Assembly: GCA_024687845.1 (NCBI GenBank)
Contig: JAILEL010000158.1
Span: 1 to 64,000, forward strand
Source: Eubacterium sp.
Lineage (GTDB): Bacteria > Bacillota_A > Clostridia > Lachnospirales > Lachnospiraceae
DNA: 64,000 nt
Reading direction: 5' to 3'
Positions 31,782 through 43,176 of this stretch are shown here, piece by piece (within the stretch, counting starts at the first letter, position 1; each line of letters opens with the position of its first letter). The notes beneath the pieces were generated by a model. That model worked only from the letters and a program-made list of their open reading frames with translations. It was not told where the DNA came from and did no database searches. The position numbers were made by a program, and so were the translations under genes.

Positions 31782-33449
31782 TTATATTCTGCCAGCTTTC
31801 ATTTCAGCTTTCATTTTATACATATTTTCATCCGCAGCCTTACTTTTTTCTTCTATATTATCATTTTCAGGATTAAACTCTGCTATACCATAAGCAACAC
31901 TAAGTGGAATATTATATTCACTATTTTTATTATATTCCTCAATCTTACTAAGCAGAGTAGTGATACTTGATTTTAATAGTGAATCGGACATTGAATAATC
32001 GGCCATAACAAAGAATTCGTCTCCACCTATACGGAAACATTTTTCTTTGTTTACAAAGGATTCATCCATAATTTCTGCAATCTTTTTTATATATATATCA
32101 CCAACATTATGTCCAAGTTCATCATTCACCTTTTTTAGATAGTTCATATCAAGCATTATCATTGTATAGATATGAGAACCTTTTGAAACCATATCAAGAG
32201 TATTGTTATATGCCTTACGATTTAATAGGCCCGTCAGTTCATCCAAATATGCAAGTTTTTCCATAATCTCAGCATACTGACCACGATGGATCATTTCTGA
32301 GATGTTAACAAATTCATATATTCCACTGAAGAAAATAAATAAAAATACTGAGTATTTAAAGTAAGAAGTTTTTTCAAAAGAAAAGGAATTAGAACAATAT
32401 CTGACTATATCAAACAGTCCTGTACTAAGAGATAGAAATACTGCAACTAGTAGCATAATTGCAAATCTTTTAGTCATCTTTTTCCTTAATATGCTCAGTG
32501 CAAGAATTAAAAACATGAGACTTGCTGCTATAGCAAGATTTATATGTGTCATCCAGAGGAGCTGATGATAATCCTGATATCCCAGGGCTGATGAAATCAT
32601 CGAACAAACAATTAGCAAAAGAGTAGAAAAAGCCCCAATTATAATAAAAAATTTATTCTTAATCCCAGTTGCATATGAAAGATAAAGAAGACCTGGCAAA
32701 GGCAGAAGATCAAGTGCGATATAGTTCGTAAAATGTGCAGCAATTGGTGATCCTGTAAGAATAGAGATAATAGAAGTTCCTGCTGCTATCCAAAGAGCAG
32801 TGACCATTGCAAAGGTTGCCAAGCTTATTATTTCAAATCTTATCTCTCCAAAATATCTCCCTATTGTCCCAATAAAAATCAGTATCATTCCAGATACAAA
32901 AATTATCATACATAGAACAAATTCAAAGATTGAACTCTGAAGTTCTGATATCAAAAATCTATTTCCATTATCAAGTCTGAGATCTTTTATAAAACCCGAA
33001 CTACCAGGATAAACATTATCGATTTTAATATAAAGCGTACCATCTACAGACATTACCGGAAGAGTAATTGCATGGGGGAAAATCCCATAAGCTTTTCCAA
33101 AAAGATTAGGTGGGGTTGGATGAAAATCATATATTAGTTCATCATCTACATATACAGAAAAATATATATTTTTAGAGTAGAAACATAGATCTTTTGTATT
33201 GATAATATCACCATTGGTTCTTTTCTTAATCTCAAAATAATCATCTGTTTTTAGATTATCAAAATCAACTAGTGAACCAGTTTCATAAGTCCATACATTC
33301 GAATAATCTATGGATTCTCCCTGATATATATTATCATTTCTATGAGATATCATGTTATGAAGAAGAAGAGTAATAATAAGCACAATAAAAAGACTATAAA
33401 ATAGTCTGCTGAAAAACAGGAATTTAGTTGTTTTATTTCCTTCCCCCAT
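31782..33449 (-). CDS. Membrane-bound diguanylate cyclase with a 7TM (DISM-like) sensor
   Basis: A 555-residue signalling protein. An N-terminal helix is followed by an extracytoplasmic domain (about 35-180, including YSKNIYFSVYVDDELIYDF). Seven or so membrane helices (about 185-385) follow, and then a GGDEF domain with LDELTGLLNRKAYNN and FRIGGDEFFV near 472. The architecture resembles 7TMR-DISM receptors. The GGDEF motif is intact, so c-di-GMP synthesis is expected; the RxxD product-inhibition site five residues upstream is absent. ATG 33449 has GGGAG/AGGGG upstream; a TTG 27 bases further out is less likely. It is the only minus-strand gene between 1.3 and 41 kb. Confidence 0.9.
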   Translation of the reverse strand: MGEGNKTTKFLFFSRLFYSLFIVLIITLLLHNMISHRNDNIYQGESIDYSNVWTYETGSLVDFDNLKTDDYFEIKKRTNGDIINTKDLCFYSKNIYFSVYVDDELIYDFHPTPPNLFGKAYGIFPHAITLPVMSVDGTLYIKIDNVYPGSSGFIKDLRLDNGNRFLISELQSSIFEFVLCMIIFVSGMILIFIGTIGRYFGEIRFEIISLATFAMVTALWIAAGTSIISILTGSPIAAHFTNYIALDLLPLPGLLYLSYATGIKNKFFIIIGAFSTLLLIVCSMISSALGYQDYHQLLWMTHINLAIAASLMFLILALSILRKKMTKRFAIMLLVAVFLSLSTGLFDIVRYCSNSFSFEKTSYFKYSVFLFIFFSGIYEFVNISEMIHRGQYAEIMEKLAYLDELTGLLNRKAYNNTLDMVSKGSHIYTMIMLDMNYLKKVNDELGHNVGDIYIKKIAEIMDESFVNKEKCFRIGGDEFFVMADYSMSDSLLKSSITTLLSKIEEYNKNSEYNIPLSVAYGIAEFNPENDNIEEKSKAADENMYKMKAEMKAGRI

Positions 33450-33710
33450 ATTCCCCTGCTCCCAAAATCTAGTCAAATGCTGAGGTCATATATAAGCAAG
33501 TATATAATAAAAATGCATAAATATCAAAATTATTTTAAATTATATTAATACTGATAATTTTCATTAAGTATAAAAAAATACAATAATATAATAAAATATT
33601 CAATTTAAAAAATATATATTATCTGATAATATGACATAAGTGTCAAAATATAAAAAAAATCAGAATAATGATAATTATATTAAGAAATTATATATCGAGA
33701 GGGGAAAACA
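33450..33710. promoter_or_regulatory. Divergent A/T-rich intergenic region with a TGACA-TAAG-TGTCA dyad
   Basis: This 261-base region between the diguanylate cyclase and the arabinofuranosidase is extremely A/T-rich. A small inverted repeat, TGACATAAGTGTCA, lies at 33632-33645 right after TGATAATAT, a possible -10. The dyad is therefore placed like an operator for the GH51 gene, perhaps sensing pentose. No small gene is visible. Confidence 0.4.
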
Positions 33711-38281: not shown

Positions 38282-38297
38282 TCATATGTTTGAAAAA

Positions 38298-38392
38298 GGG
38301 AATGAGGTCTCCCTAAGTAGATATACTTAAACCGCTTAATGAGCTGATGACTTCTGCATTTCTTTTTGTGATGCAGAGTTTGTCAGCTTTTT
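38298..38392 (+). ncRNA. Fluoride riboswitch (crcB motif) with a transcription-terminator switch
   Basis: The aptamer (38298-38356) shows GGGAATGAGGTCTCCC, a variable hairpin (AAGTAGATATACTT), then AAACCGCTTAATGAGCTGATGACTTCTGC. The GAGGTC loop can pair with GACTTC (one G-U) to form the pseudoknot, as in known fluoride aptamers. The expression platform is also visible: the aptamer 3' strand AGCTGATGACTTCTGCAT (38342-38359) alternatively pairs with ATGCAGAGTTTGTCAGCT (38371-38388), followed by TTTTT. Fluoride binding should hold the 3' strand in the aptamer, prevent the terminator and turn the gene on. The downstream cation:proton antiporter belongs to a class known to be associated with this riboswitch. 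Confidence 0.9.
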
Positions 38393-38412: not shown

Positions 38413-39588
38413 ATGTTATTAAGTATCGCTATAATACTGTTATCTGGTCTGCTGTTAGGGACTATCTGTAAGAAGGTAAGATTTCCGAGTTTGTTTGGGA
38501 TGATAATAGCAGGTGTTATTATCGGTCCTTACTGCTTGAATCTGATAGATGATTCCATTTTAAATGTTTCGTCTGAAATCAGGCGTATTGCTCTGATTAT
38601 TATACTGATTAGAGCAGGGCTAAAACTGAGTCTAGATGATCTGAAGAAAGTGGGAAGACCGGCCATACTCATGTGTTTTCTGCCGGCTTGTTTTGAGATT
38701 ATAGGAATGATTATTATTGCACCTATAATGTTCGGGATGAGTCGTCTAGATGCTGCAATACTCGGAGCTGTTATCGGTGCAGTTTCTCCGGCAGTAATTG
38801 TACCGCGAATGATAAAACTAATAGATGAAGGATATGGTACCAAACAAGGTATTCCACAAATGATACTTGCGGGAGCATCTGTGGATGATGTGTTTGTGAT
38901 TGTAATGTTTACAACATTTACTGGAATTGCTCAAGGACAGGGTGTATCAATAAGAGAAATAATTAATATTCCTATTTCAATATTGCTAGGAATAATAATA
39001 GGTTTTGCTGTTGGATTTTTGCTTTATAAATGGTTTTCAAAAATATCTGTATCATTAATAATAATGACTATAATAGTATTATCTGTAAGCTTTTGTTTAT
39101 CTGCGGTTGAAACTGAACTGGTGTTTATTCCGTTTGCTTCTTTAATTGCTATAATGTGCCTTGGTATAGCAATAAGAAAATCTGATGTTGATATGGCAAA
39201 AAAACTGTCGGCTCAATATGATAAGCTTTGGACAGTGGCAGAAGTTTTTCTGTTTGTATTAGTTGGTGCGTCGGTTGCTATAGATCATGCAAAAGAAGCA
39301 GGAATAAAGGCTGTTATACTTATTCTTGTGGTAATATTATTCAGAATGATAGGTGTATTTGTGTGTGTGATAAAAACGAAACTCAGTTTTAAAGAGAAAT
39401 TATTTTGCATGATAGCATATACACCAAAAGCAACTGTACAGGCAGCTATTGGAGGACTACCTTTGGCAATGGGACTTCCCTCTGGAGAATTAATTCTTAC
39501 CATATCTGTTGTAGCAATTTTGTTAACTGCTCCATTAGGTGCATTTGGTATAGATCTGACTTATAAAAAATTCCTGATAGCAAAATAA
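38413..39588 (+). CDS. Cation:proton antiporter (CPA family) under fluoride riboswitch control
   Basis: A 391-residue membrane protein with about 12 hydrophobic helices. It starts MLLSIAIILLSGLLLGTICK and contains FPSLFGMIIAGVIIGP, GAVIGAVSPAVIVPRM and ASVDDVF, with the paired Asp158-Asp159 expected at the ion site of CPA-type antiporters. Riboswitch context suggests it helps cells withstand fluoride stress, either by pH/ion homeostasis or direct export; direct fluoride transport is not shown for this class as far as I know. TGGAGGT lies 5 bases before ATG 38413. No crcB/fluc or CLC-F gene is in the window. Confidence 0.9.
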   Translation: MLLSIAIILLSGLLLGTICKKVRFPSLFGMIIAGVIIGPYCLNLIDDSILNVSSEIRRIALIIILIRAGLKLSLDDLKKVGRPAILMCFLPACFEIIGMIIIAPIMFGMSRLDAAILGAVIGAVSPAVIVPRMIKLIDEGYGTKQGIPQMILAGASVDDVFVIVMFTTFTGIAQGQGVSIREIINIPISILLGIIIGFAVGFLLYKWFSKISVSLIIMTIIVLSVSFCLSAVETELVFIPFASLIAIMCLGIAIRKSDVDMAKKLSAQYDKLWTVAEVFLFVLVGASVAIDHAKEAGIKAVILILVVILFRMIGVFVCVIKTKLSFKEKLFCMIAYTPKATVQAAIGGLPLAMGLPSGELILTISVVAILLTAPLGAFGIDLTYKKFLIAK

Positions 39589-39633
39589 AAATGAAATTAA
39601 AACGACTCAATTAAATTTTAGAGGTATTTGAAA

Positions 39634-40146
39634 TTGAAGGTTATTCTAAGTAGAAAAGGATTTGATTCTTCTAATGGTGGGATAGTGAGTCCGATATTTG
39701 AAGATGGTTCCATGGTTTCATTTCCTATTCCAAGTTTTGATAAAGATAACGACCTGCAAGTTATTTGGGGATACCTTCAGGTTGGTGAGATTATAGAAAA
39801 TCCTGTAGAACAGGAAAAATTATGGTGGCATCCGCATTCCAGTATTGAGCGAAGAAATAATAAAACAAATATGATTATTACTGCCACAAAAACTTTATCA
39901 TTTGATAATAGTAAACCAGGTGCTGGATTACTTAAGTATGATGTTAAGAGAGTGTTGACACTTGAAAATAATAATAAAGCTACATGGAAGTATAACACTG
40001 TATATGATTTGGAACATATATTAAGCAACAGAAGGAACTCGGCTAAGAATCCTGATGAAGGCATTTACTATGCTGGTATATGGCAGGAATTAGGGCTTGC
40101 TGAGTCTAAGGAGTGCTTGGATTGGGCAGAATCAATCGTTTTATAA
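39634..40146 (+). CDS. Nmad3-like (nucleotide modification associated domain 3) protein, internally shortened
   Basis: The protein (170 residues) opens with MKVILSRKGFDSSNGGIVSP and GSMVSFPIP, then VIWGYLQVGEII and WWHPHSS, with GAGLLKYD later. I recognise this as the Nmad3 family (putative nucleotide or nucleic-acid modification enzymes defined by gene context). Compared with the full-length family as I recall it, about 60 residues are missing between SFDKDN and DLQVIWGYLQVGE, including the FGQ and DLFLFFGWF segments. The frame is kept. TTG 39634 is 8 bases after GAGGT; a TTG at 39628 is too close. No modification partner genes lie nearby. It may be a non-functional deletion form. Confidence 0.65.
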   Translation: MKVILSRKGFDSSNGGIVSPIFEDGSMVSFPIPSFDKDNDLQVIWGYLQVGEIIENPVEQEKLWWHPHSSIERRNNKTNMIITATKTLSFDNSKPGAGLLKYDVKRVLTLENNNKATWKYNTVYDLEHILSNRRNSAKNPDEGIYYAGIWQELGLAESKECLDWAESIVL

Positions 40147-40955: not shown

Positions 40956-41030
40956 ATACGGAAATAATCGGAAAAAGTATAGTGGCCTTTTTTCTAAAAA
41001 TTTTTTTGGTTTTTACCTGTCTTTTTGGTT

Positions 41031-42080
41031 TCAATCCTTTTCTCTCAACGTCACTTTGTTTCTTGCAGCACGTTTTCGTTCCTGTTCGATATCGGCATAA
41101 TGTTTTCTTGTTGTATTTACATCTTTGTGGCCTAATACATCTGCTACAAGGTAGATGTCACCTGTTTCCTGATATAATGCAGTTCCATAAGTACTTCTAA
41201 GCTTATGAGGTGTAATATGTTTTAGTGGTGTTGCAACCTGAGCATACTTTTTTACCATATTTTCAACTGTACGTACTGATATACGTTTTCTTTGAGAGGA
41301 GAGGAAGAGTGCATCTTCATGCCCATCCACAGGCTGAATATTCTTACGTTCCTTCAGATAATCCTGAATGTATCCTGTAGCTTCATCTGAAAAATATACA
41401 AACGCTTCATTTCCACCTTTTCGCGTAACTTTTACTCTGGAATTATCAAAATCTACATCTGCAATATTAAGACCAACGGTTTCAGAAACACGAAGTCCAG
41501 TACTAAGCATAAGAGTAAGCAGAGCAAGATCACGGACCTTATCTCGCTCATGAAATTTCTGCTGACGTTCTGAAAGATTATTTCCAAATTCAACTGTATC
41601 AAGAAAATCTGCAGTTTCATTTGCCTCCATACGAGTAATTGTTTTCTCATGTATTTTAGGAGTTTTTACCTTTTCAGTAACATTTTGAGAAATCATATCA
41701 TTAATATACAGATAGGAAAAAAATTTACGAATCCCAACAAGTTTACGTTTTTTTGAAGCATTATCATTAGTATATTCACGTCCATTTCGCACGTAATATG
41801 ACAGATAATCCATGTATTCCTCAAAATCTCGAGCAGACAGCTTATTTAAGTCTTCACAGGTTATTTCATATAATTCTTTCTTTTTAAGAAATGGATTTTC
41901 ACTCTGTAAAAATTCAAAAAAATACTTTATATCATGAGCATAGCCAATACGAGTACGTGGCTGAGTTGTAGTTTCTATAGAACGCATAAAATCCTTGGTA
42001 TAAGGTGGTAAATCCGATAAAATAGAACGAAGTTCAAGGATTTGTTTTTTTGAGAGTTGTTTAACGTAGGATTCGGACAT
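41031..42080 (-). CDS. XerS-like tyrosine recombinase
   Basis: A 349-residue recombinase with an N-terminal SAM-like core-binding domain (about 22-135) and a catalytic domain with all active residues: Arg197 (LSTGLRVSE), Lys221 (VTRKGG), His292 and Arg295 (PHKLRSTYG), His318 (LGHKDV) and Tyr328. Length and segments such as RDLALLTLMLSTGLRVSE, DALFLSSQ, SVRTVENMVKKYA and PHKLR resemble XerS, the single recombinase of streptococci and lactococci, rather than ~300-residue XerC/XerD. ATG 42080 has AAGGAA 8 bases upstream. There are no phage genes nearby, and it lies where gene orientation converges, with a difSL-like site upstream. I infer a chromosome-dimer resolution role. Confidence 0.85.
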   Translation of the reverse strand: MSESYVKQLSKKQILELRSILSDLPPYTKDFMRSIETTTQPRTRIGYAHDIKYFFEFLQSENPFLKKKELYEITCEDLNKLSARDFEEYMDYLSYYVRNGREYTNDNASKKRKLVGIRKFFSYLYINDMISQNVTEKVKTPKIHEKTITRMEANETADFLDTVEFGNNLSERQQKFHERDKVRDLALLTLMLSTGLRVSETVGLNIADVDFDNSRVKVTRKGGNEAFVYFSDEATGYIQDYLKERKNIQPVDGHEDALFLSSQRKRISVRTVENMVKKYAQVATPLKHITPHKLRSTYGTALYQETGDIYLVADVLGHKDVNTTRKHYADIEQERKRAARNKVTLREKD

Positions 42081-42116
42081 GATCAGAGTTCCTTTCAAAA
42101 ATTAGATAAAATATTA

Positions 42117-42283
42117 ATGAGACCTGCAATCACTGAACCCGCTGACTTCGTCATCGGTCGGGCTAAAAAGCAAGCCCTTATGTTCAGTGATTCCGGGCAT
42201 TCGCCCTATAAAACCAAAAAGAGATGCTTAAATTTGCATGCAAGCATGCATTTAACCACTCTTTCTGGTTTTGCAGGTCTCAT
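42117..42283 (-). ncRNA. Cloverleaf-like structured leader of the recombinase gene
   Basis: A branched palindrome closed by ATGAGACCTGCAA (42117-42129) and TTGCAGGTCTCAT (42271-42283), a perfect 13-bp stem. Inside are three branches. One is the stem 42129-42138/42182-42191, enclosing a UUCG-like hairpin (42139-42157) and a GGGCT/AGCCC hairpin (42160-42177). The second is a GGGC/GCCC hairpin (42195-42206). The third is a 14-bp stem (42210-42223/42259-42272, one mismatch) topped by TTGCATGC/GCATGCA (42228-42255). It lies between a minus-strand promoter and the recombinase ribosome binding site, so it should be part of its mRNA leader. It could also be a DNA-level structure. I do not recognise it as a known RNA family. 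Confidence 0.65.
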
Positions 42284-42286
42284 ATT

Positions 42287-42310
42287 TTCGCAAAACTATG
42301 GTTTCACGAA
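42287..42310. other. Candidate difSL-like Xer recombination site
   Basis: TTCGCAAAAC, TATG and GTTTCACGAA form an imperfect inverted repeat (8 of 10 arm positions). With its flank, ATATTTTCGCAAAACTATGG then TTTCACGAA, it closely resembles the streptococcal/lactococcal difSL site as I remember it (TTTCCGAAAAACTATAATTT then TCATGAA). That site also lies just upstream of xerS. The site here is about +11 to +34 relative to the inferred start of the recombinase transcript, so binding could also repress the gene. Confidence 0.5.
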
Positions 42311-42327
42311 TAAATATGTCTCTTTAT

Positions 42328-42356
42328 AATATACCACTATTCTATATATTTTTCAA
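42328..42356 (-). promoter_or_regulatory. Promoter of the XerS-like recombinase
   Basis: On the minus strand, TTGAAA (42356-42351) and TATATT (42333-42328) are separated by 17 bases. The promoter lies within a longer inverted repeat (ATACCACTAT at 42331-42340 with ATAGTGGTAT at 42364-42373). The rest of the 406-base gap to maf (42374-42486) is plain A/T-rich sequence with no gene. Confidence 0.6.
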
Positions 42357-42486: not shown

Positions 42487-43176
42487 TTAATAATATTCTA
42501 TATATTTTCTTTTGCTTAGTTCTCTTATAAAATGGCTAAGTGGAAATCCAACGACGTTGTTATAGTCGCCATTGATTGACTCAACTAATCTGGAGCCGAT
42601 TCCCTGAATTCCGTATGCACCGGCTTTATCCATTGGTTCTCCGGTTGCTATATAATCTAAAGCTTCATATTCGTTAAATGAGAACATTTTCACCTCAGTT
42701 TTTACATAAAAACTAAAGTTATCAATTATATTATCAGAATCTGATTCATTATCTTTTGAGGCTTTGTCACATTTTGTCAGATCTATAAATTTACAGGAAA
42801 CTCCTGTATATACTTCATGACTACGTCCTGATAATCTCATTAAAAAGTCTTTGGCTTCTTCTATATTTTTAGGTTTTCCAAGTATTTTCTCATCTAAAGC
42901 AACTACTGTGTCGGCGCCTACGACCAGCACTCGGCCAACTTCGTCATTTTGTAATGAGAAAACCGAATCCATTTTAGAGGTTTTACGAATAAATATATCC
43001 GAAACTGCTCCTGCTTTCTGTTCTGACAGATCTAATACCACATCAGAAGGCTTTGTATATTCTGTTTTTTCTTGTATATCGTTTGTAATAATTTGAAATT
43101 CCAGCCCTGCCTGTTTCAGAAGTTCTCTTCTTCTAGGTGAATTAGAAGCCAGAATAATCTGTATCTTTTGTCTCAT
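42487..43176 (-). CDS. maf: Maf-family nucleoside triphosphate pyrophosphatase
   Basis: Maf proteins hydrolyse non-canonical or particular NTPs to NMP and pyrophosphate and influence septum formation. The 229-residue protein has ILASNSPRRRELLKQAGL, ADTVVALDEKILGKP, LSGRSHEVYTGV, GEPMDKAGAYGIQG and GDYNNVVGFPL. Extra acidic stretches at about 66-83 and 130-155 make it longer than the usual ~190-200 residues. The ribosome binding site is poor. It is part of the maf-rluD-lspA group of the minus-strand cluster. Confidence 0.94.
   Translation of the reverse strand: MRQKIQIILASNSPRRRELLKQAGLEFQIITNDIQEKTEYTKPSDVVLDLSEQKAGAVSDIFIRKTSKMDSVFSLQNDEVGRVLVVGADTVVALDEKILGKPKNIEEAKDFLMRLSGRSHEVYTGVSCKFIDLTKCDKASKDNESDSDNIIDNFSFYVKTEVKMFSFNEYEALDYIATGEPMDKAGAYGIQGIGSRLVESINGDYNNVVGFPLSHFIRELSKRKYIEYY

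Follow-up and report, generated by a model that had tools for sequence, protein, structure and literature searches.

The 64-kb window (the whole stretch of DNA analysed here) very likely contains a chromosome-dimer-resolution locus at the replication terminus, in which an XerS-like tyrosine recombinase would act at a dif-like site next to its gene. An earlier note, made from the sequence of the window, had proposed dimer resolution as the function of this locus, and that reading is well supported by the present analysis. The sequences provide an intact enzyme, a conserved site that is single-copy in close relatives, linkage between site and gene, and a position at a GC-skew switch; the relatives add an FtsK gamma domain and no XerC over the cut-off. 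From these we infer binding, cleavage, activation by FtsK and dimer resolution. A structured element lies between the site and the gene and is an addition to what the earlier note described. The features of the locus are as follows.

40985: peak of the cumulative GC skew, a marker of the replication terminus.
41031 to 42080, minus strand: xer gene, encoding an XerS-like tyrosine recombinase of 349 aa (PF00589, 1.6e-35; XerS model, 219 bits; catalytic residues).
42115 to 42284, minus strand: structured element with a closing stem (P1), a long hairpin (P2), a short hairpin (P3) and a forked hairpin (P4), abutting dif.
42117 to 42129, minus strand: 3' arm of the P1 closing stem, 13 of 13 nucleotides complementary to 42271-42283.
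42271 to 42283, minus strand: 5' arm of the P1 closing stem, pairing with 42117-42129.
42285 to 42312, minus strand: dif-like recombination site of 28 bp (11-6-11), TATTCGTGAAA-CCATAG-TTTTGCGAAAA, unique in the window, with a conserved 24-bp core at 42287-42310.
42328 to 42356, minus strand: candidate xer promoter, TTGAAA-17-TATATT, with an extended -10 and a 10/12 match to the consensus, directly before dif.
42487 to 43176, minus strand: maf gene (PF02545, 4.4e-54), on the other side of dif from xer.

The xer open reading frame spans positions 41031-42098 of the minus strand and would encode 355 aa if a TTG start were taken; the ATG at 42080, with GAAAGGAA just ahead of it, is the likely start codon (MSESYV..., 349 aa). 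A single tyrosine recombinase of about 350 residues with an intact active site, as the earlier note had described it, is indeed what the gene encodes: residues R197, K221, H292, R295, H318 and Y328 are the same in all 22 homologues that were aligned. By our own reading, they correspond to the catalytic motif R-K-H-R-[H/W]-Y given in an excerpt of PMC5357621. XerS was the top NCBIfam model for the window protein (NF003462, 219 bits), the XerA, XerC and XerD models giving 165-171 bits. In the diverse alignment of 22 members, all of which matched the XerS model, its best E-value (1e-68) was lower than that of any other model. The NCBI cut-off for XerS, 267 bits, was missed by the window protein and exceeded in 0 of 200 family genomes, but the Lactococcus lactis control did exceed it. 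The proposed XerS-like identity therefore stands as regards the best model and falls short as regards the cut-off. XerS-like proteins (E-value of 1e-42 or better) were present in 175 of the 200 family genomes, as a single copy in 171 and as two copies in four (G019, G055, G170 and G178). A structure model of the recombinase had a mean pLDDT of 85.6 and a pTM of 0.59, with TM-scores of about 0.4 to its structural matches; the predicted likeness to XerA, XerH and XerD is usable at the domain level only.

Where the earlier note had seen an inverted repeat, the palindromic core reads TTCGTGAAAC-CATA-GTTTTGCGAA on the minus strand (42287-42310). This 24-bp palindrome lies 206 bp from the xer gene, occurs once in the 64-kb window with up to 3 mismatches allowed, and was contained in none of 100 shuffles. 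The two arms of the site are nearly identical to each other (TTCGTGAAAC and TTCGCAAAAC). The whole site is symmetric and 28 bp long, with the layout TATTCGNNAAA-N6-TTTNNCGAATA and 4 variable bases between the arms, as read from the sequence; in distant sites the arm spacing is imposed by the search pattern itself. When 70 sites were aligned and each was read both ways (at least two of them, L025 and L164, seem to be the same place, retrieved twice), A was found at -5 in 111 and T at -2 in 125 of the 140 arm readings. Conservation at these outer positions was not forced by the search, since the pattern leaves them free.

The genome-wide tests were made on draft genomes from relatives of the window's organism, which come without completeness figures. 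The site TTCGTGAAACCNTAGTTTNGCGAA, searched for with up to 3 mismatches, occurred a single time in each of the 16 close relatives, and the reversed control was not found. We also compared the best 80 of 360 recombinase loci, ranked by recombinase homology and fetched with flanks of up to 3 kb. The site was present with at most 1 substitution in 50 of them, the reversed pattern in 0 of 80, and in 30 loci no site at this threshold lay within the fetched DNA; the exact 24-mer was present in 12 of the 14 nearest loci. The site picked out by the earlier note is thus conserved near orthologues and, in the close relatives, single in copy. Across the family, the exact 16-letter pattern TTCGNNAAACNNNNGTTTNNCGAA was found in 41 of 200 genomes, once in 40 and twice in G170, and was not found in 159, with the reversed control in 3 of 200. 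Near variants of the site also occur in family genomes, and 41 is probably an undercount of those that bear it. Relaxing the pattern to 2 mismatches gave matches in 130 of 200 genomes; dozens also matched the reversed control, and this version was dropped for counting.

In 36 of the 41 exact-site genomes, both site and gene could be placed. The distance between them, read by eye, was within 2 kb in 27; in five (G040, G074, G115, G182 and G206) site and XerS-like gene lay about 10-37 kb apart on one contig, and in four (G096, G104, G135 and G159) they were on separate contigs. The five genomes outside the linkage count are G027, G046, G141, G170 and G208. In the close relatives xer is no more than about 4 kb from the site; in L002 the site and the structured element are inverted relative to xer, and in L001, L012 and G007 they are about 1-4 kb from it. 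In G135 the exact-pattern match (C6:219912) and xer are on separate contigs, and about 0.6 kb from xer there is a variant site (C1:167946) that fits the 28-bp pattern with 0 mismatches; an exact-pattern match need therefore not always be dif. We also noted that G170 has two dif-pattern sites (C34:68381 and C36:150967) and two XerS-like matches, as a mixed bin or two replicons might give.

Gene orientation and GC skew both switch at or close to the locus. All large ORFs to the right of 41031 are on the minus strand and those to the left are on the plus strand, except 31782-33476; apart from this exception, the orientation switch at 40956-41030 is as the earlier note had it. The GC skew of the window is +0.132 to the left of the site and -0.161 to the right. 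Its cumulative skew peaks at 40985, within the orientation switch and 1.3 kb from the site, a peak reached by 0 of 5000 block shuffles. We examined nine such regions, picked for long contigs, in which the terminus was judged by GC skew alone: the window, four from close relatives (G013, G015, G006 and G001) and four from more distant ones (G194, G059, G206 and G182). The skew peak lay 87-1980 bp from the site in all nine, each time reached by 0 of 5000 block shuffles; in G182 the skew to the right of the site was weak (-0.03). The site, single in each of the 16 close relatives, stands at the skew switch in 9 of 9 regions, the window and 8 of 8 relatives, which supports the position at or near the terminus that the earlier note had suggested.

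Some neighbouring features were noted in passing. A maf-like protein ends before dif in several relatives (seen by eye and uncounted). A fluoride riboswitch (49.7 bits) at 38289-38363 precedes a gene of the Na/H-exchanger family at 38413-39588. The ORF at 39628-40146, near the terminus, matches Nmad3 (nucleotide modification associated domain 3) with 90.6 bits.

No normal XerC/XerD pair with a canonical dif was found in the 23 genomes searched for both. XerC exceeded its cut-off in 0 of 23 genomes, the cut-off being strict (only 2 of 14 known control genomes pass it), and two XerC/XerD-type proteins, scored with the XerD model, were found in 8 of 200 family genomes. A B. subtilis-type dif, with up to 3 mismatches allowed, occurred in 1 of 23 genomes, as did its reversed control. 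The one match, a Bacillus-type dif-like sequence with 2 mismatches to the pattern, lies in the MAG G002 (C87:38083-38110); the XerS-type site is also present in this genome. Of the 16 close relatives, all but the MAG G004 keep an XerD-like protein (15 genomes), which scores 287-299 bits against the XerC model, and two of these proteins, when scored with the XerD model, were both over its cut-off (343 bits). In the family as a whole, 104 of 200 genomes have an XerC/XerD-type protein at 1e-70 or better, with two copies in eight, and 96 have none at this threshold, including 19 of the 41 with the exact site. Such an absence is weak in single draft genomes and stronger in the aggregate. In G194, where one contig of 2.45 Mb represents a genome of 2.5 Mb, the site adjoins xer at the skew switch; there, the XerC model at 1e-25 returned the XerS-like match alone, and no XerC/XerD-type protein.

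The one-recombinase Xer/dif system proposed by the earlier note is therefore well supported for those family members that lack any XerC/XerD-type protein, but the close clade still has XerD, which may play a helper part. There, the XerS-like protein might have replaced XerC and bind one arm, the retained XerD binding the other. That 15 of 16 close relatives have XerD alongside the XerS-like gene, and 104 of 200 family genomes an XerC/XerD-type protein, would fit such a two-protein reaction. We nevertheless hold it to be unlikely, as the arms TTCGTGAAAC and TTCGCAAAAC are near-identical and neither is like the Bacillus XerD arm, and 19 of the 41 exact-site genomes have no XerC/XerD-type protein at 1e-70. 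Moreover, XerD (RipX) of B. subtilis is known for a separate job, the unloading of SMC at the terminus (Karaboja 2021, cited in PMC13220808). By analogy, an SMC-unloading role would explain why XerD is retained without XerC.

An FtsK gamma domain was over the cut-off in 15 of 16 close relatives, with a weak match in G003. In eight of these genomes (G009, G001, G010, G012, G013, G014, G015 and G016) we noted that xerD shares a contig with the FtsK gamma domain, at a distance of about 10-12 kb. The word GAAGAAG, which we take to be the lactococcal FtsK orienting motif, was strongly skewed towards dif in five regions (246 vs 66); since many A/G-rich words share this skew, no motif is singled out.

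In the mechanism that we favour, the XerS-like recombinase would bind both 11-bp arms of the palindromic dif, and the two dif sites of a dimeric chromosome would synapse at the septum under the control of FtsK. Sequential strand exchange across the 6-bp centre would then turn the dimer into monomers. One recombinase on both arms probably suffices, and the family probably uses one enzyme, where two are usual, to separate joined chromosomes. The structured element is not essential to this reading, because 4 of the 16 close relatives have a remnant or nothing in its place at dif.

Promoter-like sequence abuts the palindrome, which could therefore be read as a mere operator of the xer promoter and no recombination site. 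This is very improbable: the site is inverted to xer in L002, about 1-4 kb off in L001, L012 and G007, and about 10-37 kb from xer in some distant genomes, among which the sites of G206 and G182 were checked and lie at the skew switch. Promoter-like matches in the region numbered 6, not above shuffles (mean 7.4); transcription from the candidate promoter would cross dif and the structured element. It is more improbable still that gene and site are the integrase and attachment site of an integrated mobile element: the protein family does include phage and transposon integrases, but this idea is largely refuted by copy number (of 200 family genomes, 171 have one XerS-like copy and 4 have two), by the location at the skew switch in all nine regions and by the single site in 16 of 16 close relatives, which leaves no second att copy there.

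The structured element, 170 nt between the site and xer, begins 2 nt beyond the 24-bp core. The fold of 42075-42345 (271 nt) had a shuffle z of -8.5. A structure of 60 pairs is common to eleven dif-linked copies; 42 of the pairs show both-sided changes in at least one sequence, counts that lean towards this structure because they come from the RNAalifold structure itself. Covariance model R1 gave 144.6 bits on the window copy, which is one of its 11 model sequences, and found no second copy in the 64-kb window. The element is at dif in 12 of the 16 close genomes (shortened in G005), and with the window in 13 of 17; in G011 a remnant could be made out by eye, and at the dif of G014, G015 and G016 the element is absent. 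All 16 close genomes have between 1 and 10 matches to the model (E 0.1, the dif copy counted), the dif copy alone in G013. At 1e-6 the model matched 73 of 200 family genomes, and at 1e-8 it matched 17 of 196 order-wide genomes, at least 3 of these also being in the family set; both searches used strict filters with few candidates scored per genome, and their E-values are rough. Among 68 further xer/dif loci, a copy was nearby in two, L039 (between dif and xer) and L031 (behind xer), so that copies seem to have come to lie near xer/dif more than once. By eye, repeated 3' halves were seen downstream of dif copies (L003 2836-2960, L004 748-912, L010 and L013); these tandem remnants differ in closing-stem sequence, which might reflect a series of replacements of one element by another next to dif. 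Rfam gave no credible family for the window copy at the gathering cut-off or at E up to 10, the weak matches all being below gathering scores.

Loop and pair statistics were taken from 52 aligned copies, leaving out L111, L112, L116, L125, L126, L206, L208, L211 and L229 as weak, truncated or ill-fitting. Dispersed copies are numbered L107-L126 and L204-L232; the group of copies not treated as dif-linked holds two that are, L108 and L039. The pairs are 91-93% Watson-Crick, and G-T mispairs outnumber A-C (70 vs 19) in an alignment that, being fitted to an RNA model, favours such a result; the G-T excess points to one particular strand as the one that folds. The 179 hairpin loops comprise 42 GNA triloops and 23 GNYA, 14 GNAB and 51 CNNG tetraloops, with 7 GNRA and no UNCG. 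GNA, GNYA, GNAB and CNNG together make up about 4% of 1360 loops from folded pieces of the window. These loop types point to single-stranded DNA folding; since the CUUG loop is stable in RNA too, the copies are related and RNA parameters were used for folding, they are a lead and not a proof. According to the extracts of PMC4686876 and PMC8373063 that we consulted, GNA and GNNA loops, as well as GNNA, GNAB and CNNG tetraloops, stabilise DNA hairpins (Yoshizawa 1997 and Nakano 2002, cited there).

In the window, the element lies between the promoter-like site and the start codon, as a cis-acting RNA leader controlling xer would, and the G-T excess over A-C (70 vs 19, favoured by the RNA-model-fitted alignment) has one strand folding. 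We regard such a leader as quite unlikely. Copies are dispersed at other genes in both orientations and all arrangements: of 38 dispersed copies, 15 lie with and 11 against codirectional genes, 7 between convergent and 5 between divergent ones (arrangements from a simple ORF caller, an ORF of at least 90 aa overlying 12 of the 38). The element is apart from or inverted to xer in L001, L002, L012 and G007, and its loops are mostly of DNA-stabilising types, with GNRA in 7 of 179 and UNCG in none. A retron, suggested by the closing stem and long hairpin, was set aside; the genes flanking the element are xer and maf. Our own suggestion, offered tentatively and with a small chance of being right, is that the element belongs to an undescribed, family-wide dispersed class acting as folded single-stranded DNA, its dif copies being placed or kept by terminus or Xer processing. 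It might, for example, be a mini-element captured by the XerS-like recombinase, as are phages that integrate at dif as folded single strands. The element shares with REP, ERIC and MITE-like repeats a dispersed, mostly intergenic, palindromic and lineage-specific character, but differs from them in a multi-branched architecture kept by covariation and in the lack of an Rfam match for the window copy; Lachnospiraceae are not named among the matches listed in the repeat literature.

Lachnospiraceae are a major gut and rumen family. Our literature search found no paper joining XerS and Lachnospiraceae, and the match for 'dif site' and Lachnospiraceae was off-subject by its title. If the family does use a single-recombinase system with classical dif geometry, XerC would be missing and XerD optional on a large scale, XerD's role with SMC would be naturally separated from recombination, and draft genomes would gain an exact marker of the terminus. 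The locus would also become a third natural model, besides XerS and XerH, for one enzyme acting on a near-symmetric site. The element family is a separate and less understood lead: it covaries, and its loops look as if selection had favoured DNA folding.

Compared with known Xer systems, the locus shares with XerS/difSL of streptococci and lactococci a single recombinase of about 350 aa, a gene next to the site, the terminus position and XerS as the best-scoring NCBIfam model (219 bits); site and gene are linked here too (within 2 kb in 27 of 36 placed family genomes, and in 50 of 80 loci). It differs in score (219 bits vs 267, with 0 of 200 family genomes over) and in layout. As described in an extract of PMC5357621, difSL is 31 bp long, with a centre of 11 bp and arms made unequal by an extra base in one of them, whereas the site here is a symmetric 28 bp, 11-6-11; the resemblance to difSL in the earlier note is corrected to this extent, as the site is not difSL proper. 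With XerH/difH of Campylobacter and Helicobacter it has in common a single recombinase of similar size and a site near the gene. XerH is among the structural matches of the recombinase model and a weak sequence match to the window protein (44 bits, PDB search), but the arms and centre of difH differ from the site here, as far as the same extract goes (PMC5357621). With XerCD/dif (CodV/RipX in B. subtilis) it shares the terminus position, the FtsK gamma domain and the 11-6-11 geometry, which equals that of E. coli and B. subtilis dif as given in that extract of PMC5357621. Unlike XerCD/dif, it has another site sequence, XerC over its strict cut-off in 0 of 23 genomes, and a longer recombinase; Bacillus-type dif sites were predicted for 97 Firmicutes genomes, according to the portion of PMC3025954 consulted. 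Taken together, these comparisons make it very probable that the locus is a variant in its own right among single-recombinase systems, one that would work like XerS/difSL.
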